Source: a virus. Taken from it: DNA of 21,414 bases. Numbering within the stretch: the first letter of the stretch is position 1; every line of letters begins with the position of its first letter. Of this stretch, positions 3,519-19,795 are shown piece by piece. The position numbers and the translations under genes are program-made. The stretch spans positions 1-21,414 of IMG/VR virus record IMGVR_UViG_3300033064_000946; one strand, given 5' to 3'. The notes beneath the pieces were generated by a model. The model saw only the letters and a list, made by a program, of their open reading frames with translations. It was not told the origin of the DNA and made no database searches.

Positions 3519-3923
3519 CTAGTTGTAAGCGCTCCATATATTGGCATGATAGGAAAACCGATAGCGCGTCAAATCATTCTGTTGTCCAACGACTGCCACG
3601 TCATCAATTCGCCCGCTGTAGATAAACACCCCGCCGGATACGCCACCGCCTATGTATGGGACATGCACATGCACAGCGGTTTTGGCGTCAAACATGGTTT
3701 GCAATGCGGAGTTGCCAACCGTGTACAACGCCCCGACGCGCAATTCGACGGATTGCCCAGTATGACGATCATGGTAGGCACTATCTAGCGTGCGGTAGTT
3801 TAACCAACCGTGCAGCATGGTAACGCTGACGTTCTCAGCATAGGCCACCAACGCAGACGTTACCCCCGCGCCGCCGGTCCAGATATAGATAGCGCCCTCC
3901 GGCCAACTAAAGGCTTCAGGCAT
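3519..3923 (-). CDS. Tail tube-associated structural protein, function uncertain
   Basis: A 134-residue beta-rich protein between the likely major tail protein and the chaperones. It starts at ATG 3923 behind a GGGTA-type ribosome binding site. The sequence alternates hydrophobic and Gly/Thr residues (GAIYIWTGGAGVTSALVAY, VHVPYIGGGVSGGVFIYSG) and ends with RYRFSYHANIWSAYN, resembling the closing strands of tail tube or tail-tube-like folds. It could be a second tube protein, a minor tail protein or a tube-tip component. I do not recognise a specific family. The stop codon TAG at 3521-3519 is followed by a short spacer that resembles the one at 11478-11504. Confidence 0.55.
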   Translation of the reverse strand: MPEAFSWPEGAIYIWTGGAGVTSALVAYAENVSVTMLHGWLNYRTLDSAYHDRHTGQSVELRVGALYTVGNSALQTMFDAKTAVHVHVPYIGGGVSGGVFIYSGRIDDVAVVGQQNDLTRYRFSYHANIWSAYN

Positions 3924-4925: not shown

Positions 4926-5333
4926 CTACAACTCGCCTATTAGATCGTCTAGAATACTGTCCAGCAATTCCTGCGCTCTGATTTCGGCGCGGTCAAGGAA
5001 CCCGGCAGGCGCTTGCTTGCTGTGCCCTTCATTAAGCAGACCGATGTATCGCACATTAGAGCCTTGCGTTATGCTTAGACCGCCATCCGTGACATTCCAC
5101 ACCGCATCGCTAGAGCCAGCGTTTTTATTGCCGCGTATATCACCGGGCGTCCAGTGGCCCCATGATGCACGAGCACGTCCCGTATCCACTGGCATCTCGT
5201 ATTTGATGCGACGTTCAATTGCCAGCGATACCGACCGTAACTTGGTCTTTGCGCGCGTCTTGACGCGCCCCGACTTCCCGATCAGCGACTTCTGCTCTTG
5301 CTGTAGCTGGCTGTACTCGACTGATACCTGCAT
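4926..5333 (-). CDS. HK97 gp10-like tail completion protein
   Basis: A 135-residue protein with the signature of the HK97 gp10/tail completion family: a basic helix followed by IKYEMPVDTGRARASWGHW (compare the family's aPvdTGrLr-S motif), a Gly-rich middle and a C-terminal helix. It acts at the head-tail interface. ATG 5333 is preferred because the VEYSQLQQEQKSLIGKSGR stretch reads as the normal first helix. The first 119 bases overlap the 3' end of the methyltransferase gene in another frame, an unusually large overlap at the boundary of the accessory cassette. Confidence 0.8.
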   Translation of the reverse strand: MQVSVEYSQLQQEQKSLIGKSGRVKTRAKTKLRSVSLAIERRIKYEMPVDTGRARASWGHWTPGDIRGNKNAGSSDAVWNVTDGGLSITQGSNVRYIGLLNEGHSKQAPAGFLDRAEIRAQELLDSILDDLIGEL

Positions 5334-6018
5334 CCTTGTTCACTCGTAACCCTATCCCAACTTCGGTTATGATGTTCAAGCGCGTCTTTGCCATGTGCTG
5401 GATAAACGCGCCGCGCGCTTCTGGCGGGATACCCGCCTGTGCTGCTGCGTTGATACCATGTTCACTGTAGCCCAACATGGGACCATACATCACGTCCCAC
5501 AGGTGTTTCAGGTGGTAATCAAACGGCGCATCCGGGTTCGGCGCAAAGTACCCGAACGCTTCTAGCGTAAGATACCGGGTATGCGTTGGGTCCATTAAGC
5601 CGCCATTGCTCCACCCGTAAGGGAACAGCACGTATGCCACGCCATCGGGCTTAAGCACGCGCCCTAGTTCATCCCACCACGCCCACCAACCGCCAGACGA
5701 CTTGGCAAACTGCCCATTGCGTGTGACAACGTGCGGGATGTGTTCGATAAGGTGGGCCGCCAGCACCACGTCATAGGTATTGTCCGGTATTTCCCACTCG
5801 ACAGAATAAGCGCCATTAGCAGATAGCTGCTCGGTTTTCCAGGGATAGTCAAACGCATCCAGGATTAGGTTTACGCCGTCGTTGGCGTGCAAATCCGCGT
5901 TATCCCACCTTATCGCCGGGTCGGTGTATATCTCGCTCGGCAAAAAGCGGTGATGTGCCGGTTGTTCGCACGGCAGGATAATCCGCCCACAGCCGAGATT
6001 TAGTCCGCGTTTAGTCAT
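5215..6018 (-). CDS. Class I SAM-dependent methyltransferase
   Basis: A 267-residue protein with motif I at residues 6-11 (LNLGCG, the SAM-binding glycine loop). An AAHLIEHIPH segment and LGRVLKPDGVAYVLFPYG match the post-motif regions of methyltransf_11/25-type enzymes. It is the last gene of the glycosyltransferase cassette, so a sugar or glycan methylation role is reasonable, but the substrate is unknown. ATG 6018 overlaps the preceding stop by eight bases. The last 39 or so residues, rich in Arg, Ala and Val, lie inside the gp10-like gene in another frame and are probably not part of the fold. The original 3' end may have been lost when the cassette joined the tail module. Confidence 0.8.
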   Translation of the reverse strand: MTKRGLNLGCGRIILPCEQPAHHRFLPSEIYTDPAIRWDNADLHANDGVNLILDAFDYPWKTEQLSANGAYSVEWEIPDNTYDVVLAAHLIEHIPHVVTRNGQFAKSSGGWWAWWDELGRVLKPDGVAYVLFPYGWSNGGLMDPTHTRYLTLEAFGYFAPNPDAPFDYHLKHLWDVMYGPMLGYSEHGINAAAQAGIPPEARGAFIQHMAKTRLNIITEVGIGLRVNKDAGISRVQPATARAEVADREVGARQDARKDQVTVGIAGN

Positions 6019-6349
6019 TGTCGCTGTCCTGCTTTCTTACCCAGGTTAGTAGCGGGAGTCCTCGACTATACCAAATCATGCTACCCGTTACATTGTGCTC
6101 GCTTATCCAATCAGAGTCACACGACGGACTGCAAACCAGAAGACCAGTTCTCTCAACGCCGCTTGGCAAGAGATGCCAAGAATCTCCTATATACTGTCCG
6201 TCTTGATAACCCCAAAGCCGATATCGCCAGGCTTCCGGCGTTACCCAAAATTCACTACCCGATAACGTAGGCACTACCCCGGTCGCTGTTGTACTGCACT
6301 GGTCACATACATAGCGCGGCGGCGGGATATCATTTCGCTTATACGTCAT
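6011..6349 (-). CDS. Small zinc-ribbon-like protein, unknown function
   Basis: A 112-residue protein started at ATG 6349, which lies inside the end of the preceding gene (11-base overlap). A longer frame upstream adds only a basic tail read through the neighbouring gene. Two Cys pairs are seen: C15-x2-C18 (YVCDQC) and C73-x3-C77 (VCSPSC), 54 residues apart, compatible with one structural zinc site. The centre is rich in Trp and Tyr (FWVTPEAWRYRLWGYQDG). I know no function for it. Its place between another Cys-motif protein and the methyltransferase makes it part of the accessory cassette. Confidence 0.65.
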   Translation of the reverse strand: MTYKRNDIPPPRYVCDQCSTTATGVVPTLSGSEFWVTPEAWRYRLWGYQDGQYIGDSWHLLPSGVERTGLLVCSPSCDSDWISEHNVTGSMIWYSRGLPLLTWVRKQDSDND

Positions 6350-6539
6350 GTTCTGGCGCTTTCGCTTTTTCCGTATTCCGCCAGGGATAATCACCGTAAA
6401 GGTTGGGCCACAAGATTTCCCAGTGATGAGCTACGCAATCAAGCCCAGTCCCGTTGCACAGTGTACACTTCTGATTAGGGCCAAAATTACGGGCCTTACC
6501 CGTGCCATTGCAATCCAGACACTTCTTCTTATCCGCCAT
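6339..6539 (-). CDS. Small DnaJ-type cysteine-rich zinc protein
   Basis: A 66-residue protein with two CxxCxGxG motifs at residues 7-14 (CLDCNGTG) and 25-32 (CTLCNGTG). These match one half of the four-repeat zinc domain of DnaJ, enough to bind a single zinc ion. No J domain is present. The C-terminal half is Trp-rich and then charged. Such stand-alone CxxCxGxG miniproteins occur in phages and plasmids without known roles. It overlaps both neighbours by 11 bases, so it is translated as part of the compact cassette. Zinc binding is inferred from the motif. Confidence 0.75.
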   Translation of the reverse strand: MADKKKCLDCNGTGKARNFGPNQKCTLCNGTGLDCVAHHWEILWPNLYGDYPWRNTEKAKAPEHDV

Positions 6540-6741
6540 CGCGTATCACTTTCAACACTTGCTGAAGTAGCTCTGCGCGGATGCGCTCGCGATTAACAAC
6601 GTCGCTGTACCCATTATCAGTAACCGTATCAACGTGAACCACGCCCTTAATCAGCATCAGCAGTCCAACTACACGCAGTACATCTTCGTCGTGTATGTCC
6701 TGCGCCAGTGTTACCACAAAGCCCTTCGCGTTAGCCGTCAT
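6529..6741 (-). CDS. Small conserved phage protein, unknown function
   Basis: A 70-residue protein starting at ATG 6741, inside the last codons of the glycosyltransferase gene (11-base overlap). The pattern is HDEDVLRVVGLLMLIKGVVHVDTVTDN followed by a helical RERIRAELLQQVLKVI tail. It resembles small phage proteins often seen beside replication or accessory genes, with an IKGV-x-x-V core. I do not know their role. It looks like a compact alpha-beta fold without signal peptide or membrane segment. Confidence 0.65.
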   Translation of the reverse strand: MTANAKGFVVTLAQDIHDEDVLRVVGLLMLIKGVVHVDTVTDNGYSDVVNRERIRAELLQQVLKVIRDGG

Positions 6742-7630
6742 TGTCCTGCTTTGCTTTCTCGGCCTTCCGACCGCTAGTTCCCTCTACCCAGTCCACAATC
6801 ACCCGTAGCCGCTGCTCCCACGTTCCCGACTTAGCCCACGTTGCTCCCTTACGGGCAATGCGCTGGCTTAGCGTCGGTGCTTCTAACGCCCCGCGCACGG
6901 CGGATACAAGTTGCCCAGGCGTGGTGTATACGAGACAGTTCTCGCCATATTTCAAGCCTAGCGCTTCGTCGTCATCATTGGCGTCTTTGACTACAAGGCA
7001 CCCCATCGCGGCGGTTTCCCACACGCGCTGGGCAACGTCGTTGTTGGCGCTGGCAACAAGGCTGATCTTGCTGTTCTGGTACGCCTTGGCATAATCGGCG
7101 TAAATCAACCCGGTTGCATACCGGATTTTGATACCGGGAATGTTCGCAATTAGTTCGTAGATCATCGCAGCGCGTTCGGGATACATGACGCCAATCATCG
7201 CCACGTCAAACTCGCGTTCGGCCCACTTCTTGCCCGGTGCAAAGTGTTCCGCGTCATAGCCGCACGGGAGCCACGTCACGCCGTCTTCGCCAATACGCTG
7301 ACCGTTGCCATGCCCTAAGAACAGGTGATCCCAGTCGTTGAACTGGCTATAGCTGCGCACATGGTTATCTACGCCGTACACTACATGCGGCATCTTGCCC
7401 ACGCGCTTACCGTCCAGGTGGCTATCCATTGCCAGCACGAGGTCAGGCTTCCAGCCCCGCTCCGGCGGCTCAGGATGCCACACATATTCATCAGCGACCG
7501 TATGGCCCCATATCGCGTTGCCGTGCGGCGTGCCGTCCGTGCGTATATCGTGCCCCATGCGCCGCAGCGCATCAGTGGCATAACGCCCGCTTGCAACTGC
7601 CCAATGGTCGGCCAGGATTAGGATTTTCAT
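6731..7630 (-). CDS. CgeB-like GT-B glycosyltransferase
   Basis: A 299-residue protein with a GT-B-like layout. A Rossmann start (MKILILADHWAVASGRYA) is followed by YGVDNHVRSYSQFNDWDHLFLG in the N-domain. A second Rossmann domain begins near residue 141 (FDVAMIGVMYPERAAMIYEL). The C-domain donor region is RVWETAAMGCLVV (residues 202-214), the pattern of CgeB/spore-maturation-like and related GT1/GT4-type enzymes. The start is ATG 7630, sharing ATGA with the stop of the upstream gene; the longer frame to 7711 only reads through that neighbour. It likely transfers a sugar from a nucleotide donor; neither donor nor acceptor can be read from the sequence. Confidence 0.85.
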   Translation of the reverse strand: MKILILADHWAVASGRYATDALRRMGHDIRTDGTPHGNAIWGHTVADEYVWHPEPPERGWKPDLVLAMDSHLDGKRVGKMPHVVYGVDNHVRSYSQFNDWDHLFLGHGNGQRIGEDGVTWLPCGYDAEHFAPGKKWAEREFDVAMIGVMYPERAAMIYELIANIPGIKIRYATGLIYADYAKAYQNSKISLVASANNDVAQRVWETAAMGCLVVKDANDDDEALGLKYGENCLVYTTPGQLVSAVRGALEAPTLSQRIARKGATWAKSGTWEQRLRVIVDWVEGTSGRKAEKAKQDNDG

Positions 7631-7890
7631 GATGTTGACCCTTCCGTATCGGGTTCGGTATGCTTTAGCGTCGCCAGATGGATAGTTGAGTCGTCTATGG
7701 TCACAAACCAATCATAGACCGGACACCCGTTGTTACGGGAATCCATTCGCCCGACAACCTGCGATTTTCCCACAAGCCGGAGTAGTGCATCCATTACCAC
7801 AAACATTGCATCTTCAACGCTTGTTACCGCGCGTTCCTTACCTTCAGGAACGTGTGTCGTCAGCATGTAGGTTGATAGCCGCTTACTCAC
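7627..7890 (-). CDS. Hypothetical protein
   Basis: An 87-residue protein started by GTG at 7890, which overlaps the upstream stop in the sequence GTGAGTAA. No known domain is seen. A helical segment (SVEDAMFVVMDALLRLVGKSQ) is followed by a strand-rich part (PVYDWFVTIDDSTIHLATL). The tail DTEGSTS ends in the ATGA overlap with the glycosyltransferase. Coding status is supported by its exact fit into the chain of overlapping cassette genes. Function unknown. Confidence 0.6.
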   Translation of the reverse strand: MSKRLSTYMLTTHVPEGKERAVTSVEDAMFVVMDALLRLVGKSQVVGRMDSRNNGCPVYDWFVTIDDSTIHLATLKHTEPDTEGSTS

Positions 7891-8347
7891 GGTGCAACTC
7901 TTTCCACTGCGCTATCGCAGCCTCAAGGCATTCGAGGCAAACAGACATGTAGCCGTATTCGCCATCAGCGGTATCCGCCACAAGCGCGGCGCGTTCTTGA
8001 CTGCATATCTGACAGGCACGAAACTCAATCATCATGCCGTGCTGCATGGTATCAATGATGGCTAAGCATCGAGATAGGTCGTATTCGCAAACAGTGCCCA
8101 GTTGCACGCGATGGCCTTTCGATGCCAATACGCCTACCAAGTTCAAATGGGCTACCGAACTGTTGTCAGCTTCCCCGAAATCGTACGCTTTCCATTCGGC
8201 AGGACCAAAAGGCTTATTCTCCGCTTCCCATGCCGCTTCAATTGCCGCCTGAGCTACCGCCAGCGTGTCGTGTCGCTGCTCATATACCGCTGTTCGGCGA
8301 GGCTTTCCCCCGCTATAGGTGGCGACGAAGTAGTGCGTATCAGTCAT
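7883..8347 (-). CDS. Two-domain protein with C-terminal zinc ribbon
   Basis: A 154-residue protein. The N-terminal half (residues 1-60: YFVATYSGGKPRR..., RHDTLAVAQAAIEAAW..., FGPAEWKAYDFG) resembles the whole of the adjacent 79-residue protein at 8340-8579. The C-terminal half has four Cys as C112-x2-C115-x21-C137-x2-C140 (CQIC...VCLEC), a classical zinc-ribbon spacing. A similar VCLDCL module ends the protein at 13135-13452. The ATG at 8347 overlaps the upstream stop by eight bases. It could be a nucleic-acid or protein-binding accessory factor, but no function is known. Confidence 0.65.
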   Translation of the reverse strand: MTDTHYFVATYSGGKPRRTAVYEQRHDTLAVAQAAIEAAWEAENKPFGPAEWKAYDFGEADNSSVAHLNLVGVLASKGHRVQLGTVCEYDLSRCLAIIDTMQHGMMIEFRACQICSQERAALVADTADGEYGYMSVCLECLEAAIAQWKELHRE

Positions 8348-8579
8348 CGCACGTTACCTCGATAACCGTGCCAACTACTGGGCTTGTGCCCGAAAAGCCC
8401 GTAACCCATGCTGTCCAAGTACGCAACCCTTTCTCGTGTTCAATGGGTCCGTGCCACGCGAAAGCATGTTCATTCCATGTCTGCCGGATAAGAAGTTCCG
8501 TATCTCCACGCGCCGCATCCAAGCTGTCGTGCCGCGCCATCTGTCCCAAAACCTGTACTAGATATATCGTAGTGCTCAT
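8340..8579 (-). CDS. Hypothetical protein, paralogue of the adjacent N-domain
   Basis: A 79-residue protein starting at ATG 8579, with AGAGGG eight bases upstream as a good ribosome binding site. It shares with the next gene the order YLVQV, RHDSLDAA, a helix ending in W, GP-x-E and a Trp-containing strand, so the two probably arose by duplication. There is a 48-base gap to the glycosyltransferase before it, the only real gap inside the cassette. That makes this a point where translation restarts independently. Function unknown. Confidence 0.6.
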   Translation of the reverse strand: MSTTIYLVQVLGQMARHDSLDAARGDTELLIRQTWNEHAFAWHGPIEHEKGLRTWTAWVTGFSGTSPVVGTVIEVTCDD

Positions 8580-8627
8580 TGCTCATTCCCTCTCTTACTA
8601 GGCCGCGTACAATGTCGTGCATGGGCA

Positions 8628-9395
8628 TTACGCCCAGTAGTTAACCTTGATTACCGGCACGTCGGGCGTCACGTATTTGGTGTCCACCCATCGGCGCTTA
8701 AACGTCATGGCGTTCTTGGCAAATCCGCCGGGATTGCCGCCCGTGCTGCCTACGCTGTGCGTAAAGCGTACTCCTGGCTCATGCCACACCTGCCAGCCTT
8801 CCAACTGCGCACGCACGCAAAAGTCAACATCCTCAAAGTACCCGCGCCCGTAAGCGATATCGAAGCCGCCGCACATATTCCACAGCCCCCGCCGCACGGC
8901 GAACGCTGCGCCCGTAACCCATCCGACGACGCGCTGGGTGTTTATCGGTGCCCAGTCGGGATTTACCGCGTGGAGTGCCACATGATAAGGCTGGGACGCT
9001 GCATCAAACTGGCCGCCTACGCTCTGCACGCGGCCATCCGGGAAGAGCAGGGTAGGACCAGCGACGCCGCACTGTTTTTCAGCATCAAACAGTGCTAGCA
9101 GCTTAGCGTCCCAGCCCTGCTGCTCCGTGTAGCAATCCTGATTTAGAAAGAACAGGATTTCGCCCTGAGCACGTTTCGCCCCGGCGTTACAATTGCCTGC
9201 GAATCCCAAGTTAGGCGAATTTCGCTCACAGATATCACCAAAAATCAGCGGGCCGCTGTACATCTTGCTTGCATCGTCCTGAATCAGAACTTCAGTCAGC
9301 ACCGGGTCGGTGGTATCCCGAACGCTCTTGAGACAACGCGATACATCCGCTAGATGGTCAAACGCCGGAATAATGACACTAAGCCGGGGCGTCAT
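8628..9395 (-). CDS. Family 2 (GT-A) glycosyltransferase
   Basis: A 255-residue GT2 enzyme. It has the N-terminal strand PRLSVIIPAFDHLADVSRCL and the nucleotide-binding IQDDAS (residues 38-43). The metal-binding DxD equivalent is NQD at 85-87. The acceptor and catalytic region is GYFEDVDFCVRA with E188-D189, and a late His at 213 (FTHSVGSTGG). This resembles WbbL/rhamnosyltransferase-like enzymes that extend surface polysaccharides or O-glycans; the donor sugar is not determined. The start at ATG 9395 is chosen over 9416 because an AGGGAG ribosome binding site lies at 9407-9402, six bases upstream. The start sits inside the previous gene (17-base overlap). Confidence 0.9.
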   Translation of the reverse strand: MTPRLSVIIPAFDHLADVSRCLKSVRDTTDPVLTEVLIQDDASKMYSGPLIFGDICERNSPNLGFAGNCNAGAKRAQGEILFFLNQDCYTEQQGWDAKLLALFDAEKQCGVAGPTLLFPDGRVQSVGGQFDAASQPYHVALHAVNPDWAPINTQRVVGWVTGAAFAVRRGLWNMCGGFDIAYGRGYFEDVDFCVRAQLEGWQVWHEPGVRFTHSVGSTGGNPGGFAKNAMTFKRRWVDTKYVTPDVPVIKVNYWA

Positions 9396-9792
9396 TGTCG
9401 GCTCCCTGCTTATCATGTGCTAGCCGTGAAATTTGCCCGCGATAGAGGGTAATCATATCTGACCACCATTGCTCTGCCCCGGTTGATATGTTCGCCTCAA
9501 TAAACCCGTATAAATCAGGGTCTAGTCTTGGCAGCGCTTCGAGTTGCTCATAAAGCGGCAGCGCGGCAAGCCTGGCTGTGATATCCTCATCTAAGCACAC
9601 ACTGTTGGCGCAGGGCCAGCCCATCGCCGTTGTATAGGCGTTTGCCCAACCCGCCAACCAGGAAGGGCCAGAGCCAAACACAAGCATTACTTTCATTTTG
9701 TCTGGACCAACGTTGTGCTCTGGTGGGTTAGGGTCTTCTGGCCCGCCAAATAGCACCATGCAAAAAGTCGGGTTAACGCGATTATCATTCAT
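9379..9792 (-). CDS. Hypothetical protein between two glycosyltransferases
   Basis: A 137-residue protein that starts at ATG 9792 inside the end of the GT4 gene (eight-base overlap). No family is recognised. Near residue 33 there is KVMLVFGSGPSWLAGWANAY, a strand-turn-helix that looks like the beginning of a nucleotide-binding or Rossmann-like fold with a GSGPSW loop. The rest is helical and acidic (LPLYEQLEALPRLDPDLYGFI). The N-terminal 32 residues could be an extension if an internal Met is used. Its position suggests a partner or small modifying enzyme of the glycosylation pathway, which is inference only. Confidence 0.6.
   Translation of the reverse strand: MNDNRVNPTFCMVLFGGPEDPNPPEHNVGPDKMKVMLVFGSGPSWLAGWANAYTTAMGWPCANSVCLDEDITARLAALPLYEQLEALPRLDPDLYGFIEANISTGAEQWWSDMITLYRGQISRLAHDKQGADNDAPA
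9402..9407 (-). promoter_or_regulatory. Ribosome binding site AGGGAG deciding the GT2 start
   Basis: On the minus strand AGGGAG is followed by six bases (CCGACA) and then ATG 9395. The alternative ATG at 9416 has no such site at the right distance and would put this motif inside the gene. It therefore favours MTPRLSV as the N-terminus. Confidence 0.6.
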
Positions 9793-11197
9793 CGCCGCCT
9801 ACCTTCCCGTCATCGCCAGCCTTGACCGGCACAGATGCGATGGCTTGCTGCGCCTGTTGCCCGACCGCTTGCCCCAACTGCTCCGCAAGCTCTGCGGGGT
9901 TGTTGGCCCCCACGTAGATCGGCGCGTTCAAATTAATCACCGAAGCAACCGGCGTCACGCCAGCGGGCAACGGCGGCTGTACGGGCACGGCCTGCGGTGC
10001 CTGTGCGTGCTTACGCGCCATGTCCGCGCCGCGCTTCTCAAACACCCTGTCCAACACGGCGTCCACGTTCTGCATTGCGCGCTCCCAGGTGCGTTCCGTC
10101 TTGACCCACGCCAGCGCCGCCGCGCCGCGTGCCTTGCGTTCGGCGGGATGGTCGTACAGATAGCGGAGTTGCTTGGCAAGGTCTGGTACGTCAACCCGAT
10201 AGTTGACCGCCCCGCCCCACGTCCCCGGCATTCCTGGCGTGGCCTTAATCAGCGCCCCGCGTTTGTCAATGCCGATAATCTCAGGACCGCTACAATAATC
10301 AATCGCCACGCTGGGTATACCCGTCGCCATCGCTTCGATGTGCGGCAAACCAAACCCCTCACGGTGTGCAATAACGGCGTGTAGGTCAAGCAGGTTGTAC
10401 CGCTCATTTAGCCCCACTACGCCTGCCTTGAGTGCATCCTCGCGGAATAGCACGCGCCCATGATCTAGCATAACGAAGTCCATAAGCTGAGATTGCATAT
10501 CCCATCCGGCGGGACTCATCTTGTCACAATCCAGGTATAGCCGCGCCTCTGGCACGTCACGGAACGCTTCGGCAAACCCCGCCACCATTGACGGGAAATC
10601 CTTGCGGCCTTGGTTCATCGCCATCATGCCCACCACAAACGCATCGGCGGGAAGTCCCACCTTTTCGCGCAGCGTTGCGCGTACATCATCCGGCAGCGGG
10701 TAGAACTCGCTTGCGTCTACACCGGGCGGGCACAACGTCGCCTGATGCCCTGCTTTGCGGAACGCCTCAACGCCAAATTCGCTAATGGTCATCAGCGCGT
10801 CGAAGTTCGGCACTTCGTCCAGCCAGTTCTTGTAAATCGGCACGCCGTCAACGGGCGTCAAGGCCACATGCCCCGTCGTACTCCAATCAACCCCCGACCC
10901 ATGCCGCAGATTGATATGATACGGGAAGTCTTGCAGCGACAAGATGAGGTCCGGCTGAAACGCCGCCCACACCCCCGTCAGCGCGCCTTCAAACGGCTTG
11001 CCTTGTAGCGCCGCCGCGAATGGAACGCCCGTGCGCGGTGGTAACAGCCCGTCGTACTGAATACACGCGGCGTAGACGTTGTAGCCCTTGCTGGCGAGAT
11101 GCTTATAGATTGCCGCGCCGATGCGCCCGAATCCGGTAGGGACGGCTACGTCACCGTAGATTAGAACCTTGCGCGGTTGTTTGCCGTTGCTATTCAT
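9785..11197 (-). CDS. GT4 family glycosyltransferase with C-terminal extension
   Basis: A 470-residue GT-B glycosyltransferase. The N-domain opens with KVLIYGDVAVPTGFGRIGAAI (residues 10-30), including the acceptor-side Gly loop. A linker CPPGVDASEFYPL (156-168) precedes the C-domain. The donor-binding E-x7-E signature is at E280 and E288 (HREGFGLPHIEAMATGIPSVA). Residues about 386-470 form an extra Ala/Pro/Gln-rich tail not needed for catalysis. The start at ATG 11197 overlaps the upstream stop; GTG 11206 is a less likely alternative. It is the first enzyme of the cassette and presumably acts with the GT2 and CgeB-like enzymes. Substrate unknown. Confidence 0.9.
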   Translation of the reverse strand: MNSNGKQPRKVLIYGDVAVPTGFGRIGAAIYKHLASKGYNVYAACIQYDGLLPPRTGVPFAAALQGKPFEGALTGVWAAFQPDLILSLQDFPYHINLRHGSGVDWSTTGHVALTPVDGVPIYKNWLDEVPNFDALMTISEFGVEAFRKAGHQATLCPPGVDASEFYPLPDDVRATLREKVGLPADAFVVGMMAMNQGRKDFPSMVAGFAEAFRDVPEARLYLDCDKMSPAGWDMQSQLMDFVMLDHGRVLFREDALKAGVVGLNERYNLLDLHAVIAHREGFGLPHIEAMATGIPSVAIDYCSGPEIIGIDKRGALIKATPGMPGTWGGAVNYRVDVPDLAKQLRYLYDHPAERKARGAAALAWVKTERTWERAMQNVDAVLDRVFEKRGADMARKHAQAPQAVPVQPPLPAGVTPVASVINLNAPIYVGANNPAELAEQLGQAVGQQAQQAIASVPVKAGDDGKVGGDE

Positions 11198-11477
11198 CCG
11201 TGCCACTTTCTGGCGTTTCGCCCTGTGCTTTGCTTACAATAACCCGCAAATAGGCATCAAATGCCTGTGCGAAAGTGGGAAATTCCGGCCCCTCTAACAA
11301 TCCAGGGATCGACATATCCGCAACGACCCATTCCGCTCCGCTCACACGGAAGATACTATGCCCTGTAATGTCTGCAAGTTTCTCGACAATGCGGAGCATG
11401 TCTTCAAATTGCGCGGACTTTTCCAACACTTCGCTGGCAATCTCCGCCCACGTTGGTATGACACGCGATACCTTCAC
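11190..11477 (-). CDS. Hypothetical protein at the head of the accessory cassette
   Basis: A 95-residue mostly helical protein begun by GTG at 11477, with AGAAAGG upstream. It is preceded by a 24-base spacer after the virion protein gene. The sequence IPTWAEIASEVLEKSAQFEDMLRIVEKLADITGHSIF reads as two amphipathic helices, followed by a strand (SGAEWVVADMSI) and a final helix. No domain recognised. It overlaps the GT4 gene by eight bases and so is tied to it translationally. It might be a regulator or partner, but nothing in the sequence shows this. Confidence 0.6.
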   Translation of the reverse strand: MKVSRVIPTWAEIASEVLEKSAQFEDMLRIVEKLADITGHSIFRVSGAEWVVADMSIPGLLEGPEFPTFAQAFDAYLRVIVSKAQGETPESGTDE

Positions 11478-16641: not shown

Positions 16642-18021
16642 TCACTTTCCCTGAGCCGCTAGGCGTTCCATGCGGCGGTTCCAATCGGCATAGTCCTCAT
16701 CAGGACGCGGTATCATGTCGCGCGGTTGCGGCTGCGGCGGGCGAATTTCTTGCTCACGTAATGGAGCGCCCTCTACATGCACGCGCGGCGCGGCCTTTAC
16801 CGCTTTTGCTTTGCGCTGGTCCCGCTGCACAACTTTTAGCCATTGCTCAGGAGGTAGTTGCTTACATTGCTCACGAATGTCGCTTGCCCAGTCTGCGGGC
16901 AAACGCGCCTCGGCCAACACGCGCTCCAGTTCCACTTCCAGCGCCGTCCGCTGTAAGCTCTCCTGTAGCGCCGTGACTTCTTCGGCTAGTTCTACATTGC
17001 GCGACTCTGTTGCATCTACCTTGCCCTGCAACGTTTCGTTATCAGTCTGGGACTTACGCCAGCCTTGCATGGCCTTATCCCGGTCTGTCCGCGCTTCCTG
17101 CAAGTCATCGGGGGATACGTCAAGCGTGCCCCGGTACTCATCTAGTAAATCCTGCCGGGCGTTGGTAATCTCATCTAGCGTCAACGCTTCCAGGATATCG
17201 CCCACCAGAGTATGCGCTGTCCCGGCCACCAATGCCTGGAAACCGCCACCGGCGGCGGGCATGTCTACATCGTCCGCGCTGTTAGCGTGGGTAATGTCTT
17301 CAATAATCAAGCCCTCACGCCCAGCAGCCTTGCCCTTAGACGCTTTGCCAACGGCATTAATGCTGATGCCCACGACAGGGCGTTTTGTTTCCAACGCCCG
17401 CGTAATAAGCGGCCAGACCGCATCCCCAGCAACTCCGTATACATGCCGAGTTGCCAGAATTTCGCCGCCGGAGCCTACGCGCACGCCGGTGTAATCGCCC
17501 GTAATATCGCGCACGTCCCGACCATCGCCACTCTTGAGTTGTTCCATTGTCGGATGGTTGGCGTATGCCTTAACGCCCTCAAACAACCCCGCCGCTTTTT
17601 GTAGCACTTCGGGGCTATAATATCGGCCATTCTTTGACCAACCGGGCCGAATGATTACCACGTCCACCTTGCGCGCGTCAACGTCTAGCGTGTTTTCCAG
17701 CAACTCTACGCCCTCAACGAGCATTGTTGTTTGTGGCGGCAACGCGGGCGGCGCGGATTCTCCGTACTCCCCCGCTTGTTCGCCTTCATCCGGGCTGTTT
17801 TCATCCGGCAGTGGCGGCGCTTCTGGATTCGCGTCCCATCGCTGGCAAAACCCGCCTGCCTCAATGGTCAACGGTTCATTGACCACCAAACGGCACGGCA
17901 TCTCACCTTCACCATTCCACCAACGACAGCGCCCGCATACAAGGTTGTTTTCTGGCGCTTGTGCCTGATACCCTGCGTCGGCTTGCTGTAGCATTACGGC
18001 CTCTGCGATTGTCGGGTCCAT
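16642..18021 (-). CDS. Prohead protease fused to scaffold, with N-terminal 4-Cys motif
   Basis: A 459-residue protein. Residues 117-280 are the prohead protease domain, with RPGWSKNGRYYSPEVLQKA (125-143), the KAYANHP segment with likely catalytic H156, and PVVGISINA with probable nucleophile S220. Residues 300-375 are a charged coiled-coil scaffold, and a basic, Pro-rich tail follows. N-terminal Cys residues C29, C32, C43 and C59 (CGRC, PCRL, FCQRW) form a putative metal-binding or iron-sulphur-like module. The enzyme would cleave scaffold and capsid precursors during head maturation. ATG 18021 has a modest GCGAAAGCG region upstream. The single-polypeptide protease-scaffold layout is common in such phages. 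Confidence 0.85.
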   Translation of the reverse strand: MDPTIAEAVMLQQADAGYQAQAPENNLVCGRCRWWNGEGEMPCRLVVNEPLTIEAGGFCQRWDANPEAPPLPDENSPDEGEQAGEYGESAPPALPPQTTMLVEGVELLENTLDVDARKVDVVIIRPGWSKNGRYYSPEVLQKAAGLFEGVKAYANHPTMEQLKSGDGRDVRDITGDYTGVRVGSGGEILATRHVYGVAGDAVWPLITRALETKRPVVGISINAVGKASKGKAAGREGLIIEDITHANSADDVDMPAAGGGFQALVAGTAHTLVGDILEALTLDEITNARQDLLDEYRGTLDVSPDDLQEARTDRDKAMQGWRKSQTDNETLQGKVDATESRNVELAEEVTALQESLQRTALEVELERVLAEARLPADWASDIREQCKQLPPEQWLKVVQRDQRKAKAVKAAPRVHVEGAPLREQEIRPPQPQPRDMIPRPDEDYADWNRRMERLAAQGK

Positions 18022-18060: not shown

Positions 18061-18606
18061 TTAATCTTCATACCATTCCAGGGTAACGCTAGCAGCTTTG
18101 GTGCCGCCTGCTTTGTTCACAAATCGTATAAGGTAGTTCTGATTAGCGCTGAATATCCACTCCGACCGGCTTTGTGCTGCCCCGCCAGGCGACTTGGGAC
18201 CACCACCGCCAGCCAATAATTGACCGGGAACAATAGCCGTACCTGTCGCGCTAATCCCCTCAGGCCCATGAAACACCTGAGCGCTGGCTGCGATAGGGGC
18301 CTGACGGTTCTGGCAAAACGCCGTGACCGCCGTCCCGCTGGCACCTGTGACCACTGTGCCCTCGTAAATGTAGGCGAAAAAGTCCCCGCCCACTGAGGCT
18401 TGCGGCACCATGTGGCATTCATAGCCCGACGTTGAGACCAACACCTGAGCAGTTGCGTCGTCAGCAATGGCCGCCCAAAGATGGGCCGCATGATACGACC
18501 GCCCCTTGTGTATCTCGCGGTGGGCGTGGTCAATGACGCCCAATCTGCCCTCATTGAAATTAAACGCACCACGCCATGAGTGTTCGTCATAGCCAAAGTT
18601 TGTCAT
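18061..18606 (-). CDS. Head-associated beta-rich protein, role unknown
   Basis: A 181-residue protein started at ATG 18606; a TTG at 18630 would add eight residues, but it lies within a hairpin. The sequence is beta-rich and has a stretch HAHREIHKGRSYHAAHLWAAIADDATAQVLVSTS, followed by a Gly-rich part (PGQLLAGGGGPKSPGG) and a final SANQNYLIRFVNKAGGTKAASVTLEWYED. Proteins with this HKGR-SYH and NYLIRFVN pattern occur beside head genes in many phages. I infer a virion, perhaps head auxiliary, role without known function. The structured segment 18623-18772 precedes it and could control its translation. Confidence 0.65.
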   Translation of the reverse strand: MTNFGYDEHSWRGAFNFNEGRLGVIDHAHREIHKGRSYHAAHLWAAIADDATAQVLVSTSGYECHMVPQASVGGDFFAYIYEGTVVTGASGTAVTAFCQNRQAPIAASAQVFHGPEGISATGTAIVPGQLLAGGGGPKSPGGAAQSRSEWIFSANQNYLIRFVNKAGGTKAASVTLEWYED

Positions 18607-18622
18607 GATAAGTTCGCCTATC

Positions 18623-18640
18623 CTTGCCAATTAGGGCAAG
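18623..18640 (-). promoter_or_regulatory. Hairpin over the initiation region of the 18606 gene
   Basis: The minus strand has CUUGCC, the loop CUAAUU, and GGCAAG, a perfect 6-bp stem about 17 bases before ATG 18606. Its 3' arm shares the AAG of AAGGA, the nearest Shine-Dalgarno-like sequence, and includes the alternative TTG start. It could mask the site and tune translation. The effect is inferred from the fold. Confidence 0.45.
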
Positions 18641-18644
18641 TATT

Positions 18645-18772
18645 GTTTAAGCACATAGAGCATAGTGGGTGGCATGGGCCTCCAACCAACCCCGCCAGGG
18701 AGGCGCTAAGCATGCGGGGCATACACCCTCAACTCTACCACCCCGGAGGGCCTATGCTCTATATGCTCAAAC
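18645..18772 (-). ncRNA. Structured RNA element between two head genes
   Basis: The ends of this 128-base segment pair on the minus strand as a 21-bp stem: 18772-18752 with 18665-18645. Two of the pairs are G-U. On the opposite strand these would be C-A mismatches, so the fold fits RNA made in the direction of the genes. Inside, 18749-18745 pairs with 18683-18679 (CCUCC/GGAGG), and 18720-18714 pairs with 18695-18689 (GCCCCGC/GCGGGGU). An alternative pairing GGGUGG/CCACCC also exists. The 5' arm begins in the last codon and TGA of the head morphogenesis gene. No long open frame with a start fits this stretch. It could be a regulatory leader, an RNA processing signal, a small functional RNA or a MITE-like relic. 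No known RNA family is recognised. Confidence 0.6.
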
Positions 18773-19795
18773 CTCATTCATTCCGCCAGCGTCGGTTGCG
18801 CCAGCATCGCCCAACCCGCCGTCATCGTCCGCCACATTTGCATCACGCCACTGGTAGTAGTTGGGGCGCTGTGGTGCCAGCGCGTCTTGAATTTCCGTAT
18901 CCACCAAAACGGGTACGATAGTGCATCGACAATTTTGATGTGAGTCCCCCGGTGGCAGCTTTCTTTCCGGGTCACTTAACGTCCACGTTTTGCCGTCAAG
19001 TCCCTGACAAATGGTACACACGCGCTCATCTCTAGACGAAACCCACTCATACCCTGCTACAACGTCCGCGTTCTGCTCATAGACTGCCAGCGCACCCAGG
19101 TTCGCGGCTCGCTGTATCTCTGTCCGCGTAATCGTTAGCACCCGAAAGAAGTTCTTGCGGAAACCCTTGCGCCGGTCGGTCGGTATGCCAAGTGTATCCC
19201 GCAGCCGCCGAAACGCTTCGTCCATGCTGTCGCCCGCGATGAGGCTATCGGCAATCACACGGCGGATAATCGCCACGTACTCATCAAACGTCATGCCCAG
19301 ATCGTAATGCCAGGGCTTGCCGAGATACGGCGACGTTAGCGCGGCCTCAATTGCCTCGGTGGGCAAAATACGCGCGTTGACTTGCTCTTGCACCGCGCCG
19401 TCGTGCTTGGTACTGGCATCAATGGCCCACGCCCTGCCCCAGTAGCCTTGCCTGAATGACTTGACGCTAGTGCGGCGCGTTCTGGCAAATACGGCATCTT
19501 TTAGACCCTGGAACACCGCCGCCGCCGCTTCAAGCGTCTCATCTAATCGCGCCAAATCCGGCTCGCCATTGCGATACCCGGCGCGGATAACGTCATTCAT
19601 GTCTCGCAGCGTGGCAAGGTAGGTGCTGTACAGCCACCGCGCCTCAGCGTCCTCGAAGCCATAGAGCCGCGTTCGTACCCACCATTCGGCATATCGGAGC
19701 GTTTCGCTGTCATTCTTAAGCGGTCGCGTGATGCTGGCCGCGTCAGTTTGCCACGCGGGGCGCCTCTTTGCTTTCCGCTTCGTCCGTGTCGCCAT
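18767..19795 (-). CDS. Head morphogenesis protein, Mu gpF/SPP1 gp7 family
   Basis: A 342-residue minor head protein. The family signature lies in the C-terminal third: TRTEIQRAANLGALAVYEQ (223-241), then WVSSRDERVCTICQGLDGKTW with C260-x2-C263, and finally H286-x2-C289-R-C291 (SHQNCRC). The Cys/His set is a likely zinc site. Such proteins bind the portal, are packaged in the procapsid, and help DNA entry or head assembly. ATG 19795 is preceded by GGAG at five bases and lies in the end of the portal gene, so the two overlap by 53 bases in different frames. Its stop codon TGA (18769-18767) is within the 5' arm of the long RNA stem. Confidence 0.9.
   Translation of the reverse strand: MATRTKRKAKRRPAWQTDAASITRPLKNDSETLRYAEWWVRTRLYGFEDAEARWLYSTYLATLRDMNDVIRAGYRNGEPDLARLDETLEAAAAVFQGLKDAVFARTRRTSVKSFRQGYWGRAWAIDASTKHDGAVQEQVNARILPTEAIEAALTSPYLGKPWHYDLGMTFDEYVAIIRRVIADSLIAGDSMDEAFRRLRDTLGIPTDRRKGFRKNFFRVLTITRTEIQRAANLGALAVYEQNADVVAGYEWVSSRDERVCTICQGLDGKTWTLSDPERKLPPGDSHQNCRCTIVPVLVDTEIQDALAPQRPNYYQWRDANVADDDGGLGDAGATDAGGMNEV

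Follow-up and report, generated by a model that had tools for sequence, protein, structure and literature searches.

In phage SPP1, the morons ORFs 8-10, together with oriR, lie between gp6-gp7 and gp11-gp13 and are bracketed by transcription signals (PMC6316719). A similar arrangement is found in the IMG/VR phage record IMGVR_UViG_3300033064_000946, of which positions 1 to 21,414 (21,414 nt, further referred to as the window) were analyzed. Both phages have extra co-directional genes of unknown function at the boundary between portal plus minor head protein and capsid, and signals in the adjoining non-coding DNA. In the window, however, the segment consists of a single gene, here called gX, and of a 128-nt element in which one 21-bp stem without U-tract encloses a GC-rich interior. 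The RNase III hairpins of the T7 type resemble this element as well: they too have a long stem, about two helical turns in length, that separates co-directional genes on a polycistronic message. The T7 sites are proven to be cleaved and contain short loops or bulges, whereas the hairpin of the window has an 86-nt interior and its cleavage is putative. With miniature inverted-repeat transposable elements (MITEs), finally, the element has in common that it is short, non-coding and bounded by terminal inverted repeats, but it has neither copies nor a target duplication.

The terminal stem

The stem is beyond chance and is complete only on the transcribed strand. It is formed by an inverted repeat (18645-18665 / 18752-18772), the best of the window, with arms of 21 nt that are 90% complementary and enclose 86 nt. 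The 5′ arm (18752..18772, minus strand) starts within the end of the Mu-F/SPP1 gp7-like head-morphogenesis gene (18767..19795, minus), its first 6 nt being the last codon GTT and the stop codon TGA. In minus-strand RNA the two mismatches between this arm and the 3′ arm (18645..18665, minus) become G-U pairs, at 18768/18649 and 18763/18654, and all 21 pairs can form; they have probabilities of 0.97–1.0 in the fold predicted within a 601-nt context. The initial annotation, which described the region from sequence as a structured RNA, had placed the arms, the two G-U pairs, the 86 enclosed bases and the overlap with the gene end exactly here. It had likewise recognized the largest gene-free stretch, as the gap at 18607-18766 is, with its 160 nt, the widest between genes of the window (next widest 72 and 48 nt).

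None of 328 dinucleotide-shuffled windows had 19/21 Watson–Crick pairs at a comparable span, and a single one reached 21/21 when G-U pairs were allowed. The fold of the whole element has a z-score of -5.7 to -6.2 on the minus strand and of -1.9 to -2.4 on the plus strand; the minimum on a fixed grid of 664 windows is -3.8, compared to about -6 for the element. The predicted energy of the hairpin is -71.8 kcal/mol. All of the folding excess comes from the terminal stem. Taken alone, the 86-nt interior (18666..18751, minus; 67% GC) does not fold more stably than shuffled sequence, with a z-score of -0.6 on the minus strand and of +1.4 on the plus strand. Because of this value of -0.6, the inner helices are ordinary for the composition and represent what is expected of a sequence with 67% GC. 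Consequently, the earlier description as a structured RNA holds for the stem, which is real and present on the transcribed strand, and fails for an elaborate fold, the further GC-rich helices being without special meaning. The asymmetry between G-U pairs on one strand and C-A mismatches on the other, previously read as a sign of selection on the RNA, is a weak argument too, since two transitions in a palindrome give both G-U pairs on one strand half the time. On the plus strand 19/21 stem positions still pair.

No homologous family was found for the element. Rfam 15 gave no match at gathering score across the window, and within 18560-18850 even a limit of E up to 10 brought none, in line with the initial annotation, which knew no matching RNA family. 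Comparison of the element DNA with phages, plasmids and 298 genomes yielded short chance-level matches only; these genomes represent the class of L016, an Anaerolineae metagenome-assembled genome (MAG) with a related portal gene. Scans of all IMG/VR with an interior 17-mer and an arm 19-mer returned the same virus plus chance matches inside unrelated sequence, and the single-arm matches in two AT-rich contigs are due to chance. An identical spacer is present on one further contig from the same metagenome, IMGVR_UViG_3300032608_000334, and this was the sole other copy found in the search for copies that had been proposed. So far, the element is represented by one distinct sequence from one virus. 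Its ends read GTTTGAG...CTTAAAC on the minus strand and GTTTAAG...CTCAAAC on the plus strand, and neither strand matches the core sites of integron attC (5′ RYYYAAC, 3′ GTTRRRY). The spacer was also considered as a degraded piece of a neighboring gene, but neither six-frame peptides nor self-comparison supplied convincing evidence of this.

The head-morphogenesis/protease junction in related phages

Related contigs were gathered by searches with the portal, head-morphogenesis and protease proteins, most of them having a portal identity of ~37–59%, and the junction between head-morphogenesis and protease genes could be read in 16 relatives. In 11 of them (L003, L006, L008, L010, L013, L018, L020, L027, L028, L029, and L042) the two genes overlap, directly adjoin each other or are separated by no more than 82 nt. 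The five others carry unrelated cargo: a polysaccharide deacetylase and small open reading frames (ORFs) within about 1.8 kb in L056 (985-2842), two ORFs each in L019 (2681-3576) and L039 (1900-2795), one ORF of 112 aa in L012 (6655-6993) and one of 67 aa in L046 (4578-4781). Judged by this comparison, the junction is a recurrent insertion point. No homologue of gX was found in the head modules of the 16 relatives, and no comparable junction stem in those scanned for repeats, a scan that omitted L020, L027, L028, and L029. The spacer and gX are missing from all 16. This is the strongest context of the element, namely that the stretch appears to accompany a gene insertion, and the initial annotation had missed it.

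Since gX and the spacer are missing from these relatives, the comparison supports the view that the hairpin and gX are a lineage-specific insertion, or moron, at the boundary of portal/head-morphogenesis and protease/capsid genes in a tailed phage, probably a phage of Chloroflexota. By the original definition morons have their own promoter and terminator, and neither is predicted here on the minus strand. Later usage does not require them (PMC6316719). L018 and L042, which are among the closest relatives here, end their head-morphogenesis gene in ..NEV* as the window does (AATGAGGTATAG and AATGAGGTCTAG, respectively; window AATGAGGTTTGA). Therefore, the first 6–9 nt of the 5′ arm are an ancestral gene end and not an imported terminal repeat.

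Two side observations concern the relatives. Cysteine-rich ORFs occur among the junction cargo. In L064 (2992-3001) and L017 (8374-8662), protease sequence follows soon after the portal gene without a head-morphogenesis match between them, which reflects either a genuine rearrangement or a faulty contig.

Possible roles of the hairpin

Our best guess, which we put forward tentatively, is that the hairpin is an ordinary signal of mRNA processing or polarity, being co-transcribed and either processed by RNase III or setting mRNA stability. The stem would form in the polycistronic late mRNA directly after translation of the head-morphogenesis gene has ended and the ribosome has left its stop codon, and might then act as an intercistronic processing or stability signal, by being cut by the host RNase III or by blocking exonucleases. 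The two halves of the message would become uncoupled in this way, allowing low-copy portal and morphogenesis proteins and high-copy gX, protease and capsid proteins to be made at different levels. A helix of 21 bp makes about two turns, the size preferred by RNase III, and the 21 predicted pairs with their probabilities near one provide double-stranded RNA of that length. RNase III has a propensity for uninterrupted duplexes (PMC3997798). Also in favor of this role are the position of the stem between co-directional genes with no promoter predicted close by, the absence of spacer and gX from the 16 relatives, and the SPP1 morons at the same boundary. A functional hairpin would illustrate how a gene that has entered a densely packed head operon is kept insulated from the genes around it, and it could be a control point of portal-to-capsid expression in phages whose hosts have received little study. 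The wider proposal, in which a regulatory or processing RNA of a kind not described before would accompany gX-type morons and determine the portal:capsid expression ratio in Chloroflexota phages, is highly unlikely. Several points weigh against a functional signal in such a phage. Relatives express the same genes without it, the interior is not specially structured, and selection on the pairing is unproven as a homologue of the spacer was not found. Furthermore, an inverted repeat that is neutral or has decayed would have the same appearance, and the host assignment is based on two MAG matches only.

The main rival is a functionless relic of the gX insertion, in which the inverted repeat was made or brought by recombination, for example by snap-back copying of the gene end in inverted orientation. 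We regard this as rather unlikely but as an explanation to be reckoned with: the junction is a hot spot of insertion, the interior carries no signal beyond composition, and with the start of the 5′ arm ancestral, as L018 and L042 suggest, it may be the 3′ arm that was added as an inverted copy. On the other hand, the window yielded no donor sequence, and the arms differ at two positions in 21 nt, both being G-U on the sense strand, which points to recent origin or to maintenance. If the hairpin is not functional, it would be a plain case of debris and cargo gathering at a known insertion boundary. A MITE-like element, as the initial annotation had considered, is the least probable explanation of all. 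Despite a length of 128 nt and terminal inverted repeats of 21 nt, the flanks GAATGAG / AATACTT contain no target-site duplication, the searches described above revealed no dispersed copies, and part of one arm is an ancestral gene end.

Processing or stability control of the mRNA, the favored role, also has to be weighed against other regulatory functions of the hairpin. It could be an attenuator or an unusual terminator (without U-tract or factor-dependent) of the portal/head-morphogenesis unit, with partial read-through to gX and the capsid genes. A very strong hairpin placed directly at a stop codon would suit this, as would the original definition of morons as complete transcription units and the transcription signals that bracket the SPP1 cargo at the same boundary. 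Nevertheless we consider it unlikely, as essential capsid genes lie downstream and a sigma-70 consensus scan predicted no promoter for them. The terminator scan gave no minus-strand site and no U-run follows the stem 3′ (AAACAATAC, in which the 3′ arm ends with AAAC); sequence and scan together exclude a U-tract terminator. Distinctly unlikely is a translational regulator of gX, such as a coupling, leader-peptide or protein-binding element. The element lies 38 nt from the gX start, on its 5′ side, a ribosome that terminates would partly open the 5′ arm, and an ORF of 23 codons enters the element from 18777. However, in the predicted fold the ribosome-binding site of gX lies inside two adjacent small hairpins (18607-18640) that are independent of the large stem. 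One, of 6 bp (CTTGCC-CTAATT-GGCAAG; 18623..18640, minus), overlaps the likely ribosome-binding site; the other (GATAGG-CGAA-CTTATC; 18607..18622, minus) is immediately 5′ of the ATG. When the element was deleted in silico, the start region remained equally paired by these two hairpins, contrary to the earlier suggestion that the element regulates translation by sequestering this site. By chance alone, a stop-free run of 23 codons would arise in roughly one case out of three. A trans-acting structured small RNA with a role of its own, in virion assembly or counter-defence, is very improbable. The structure is stable on the transcribed strand, and phages are known to make such RNAs (PMC10686824), but no promoter is predicted, Rfam gives no match, conservation is lacking and the interior is at the level of shuffled sequence.

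gX and the surrounding late genes

The start of the 23-codon ORF (MRFEHIEHRPSGVVELRVYAPHA; 18706-18777, minus) overlaps the head-morphogenesis gene at its end, and the ORF continues into the hairpin. The late genes of the window are on the minus strand, where gX (18061..18606) encodes 181 aa and is taken as the moron gene. Its product has a weak match to phrog_5335, a family of unknown function. A search for phrog_5335 in the relatives and the class-level genome set gave no match and is uninformative, as the control gave no match either. The structure prediction of gX was an all-beta guess with a mean predicted local distance difference test (pLDDT) score of 39.5 and is unusable. In IMGVR_UViG_3300032608_000334 (L002), gX lacks about 168 nt (56 codons) in frame, a deletion corresponding to 18283-18439 of the window and located at 3905-3915 of that contig. 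It is flanked by copies of an 11-nt direct repeat (GCTCAGGTGTT) and is either a natural variant or an assembly effect.

The portal gene (21380-19743, minus) precedes the head-morphogenesis gene. Downstream of gX lie the head maturation protease/scaffold gene (16642..18021, minus), which adjoins the head-morphogenesis gene in most relatives, a gene for a small protein (16631-16089, minus) and the major capsid gene (16076-14991, minus). Further on, at 5215-11206, lies a cluster of a kind rarely seen amid structural genes. It holds two glycosyltransferases of different families, identified by Pfam, together with a methyltransferase-like ORF and a third glycosyltransferase-like ORF, both read from their translations only.
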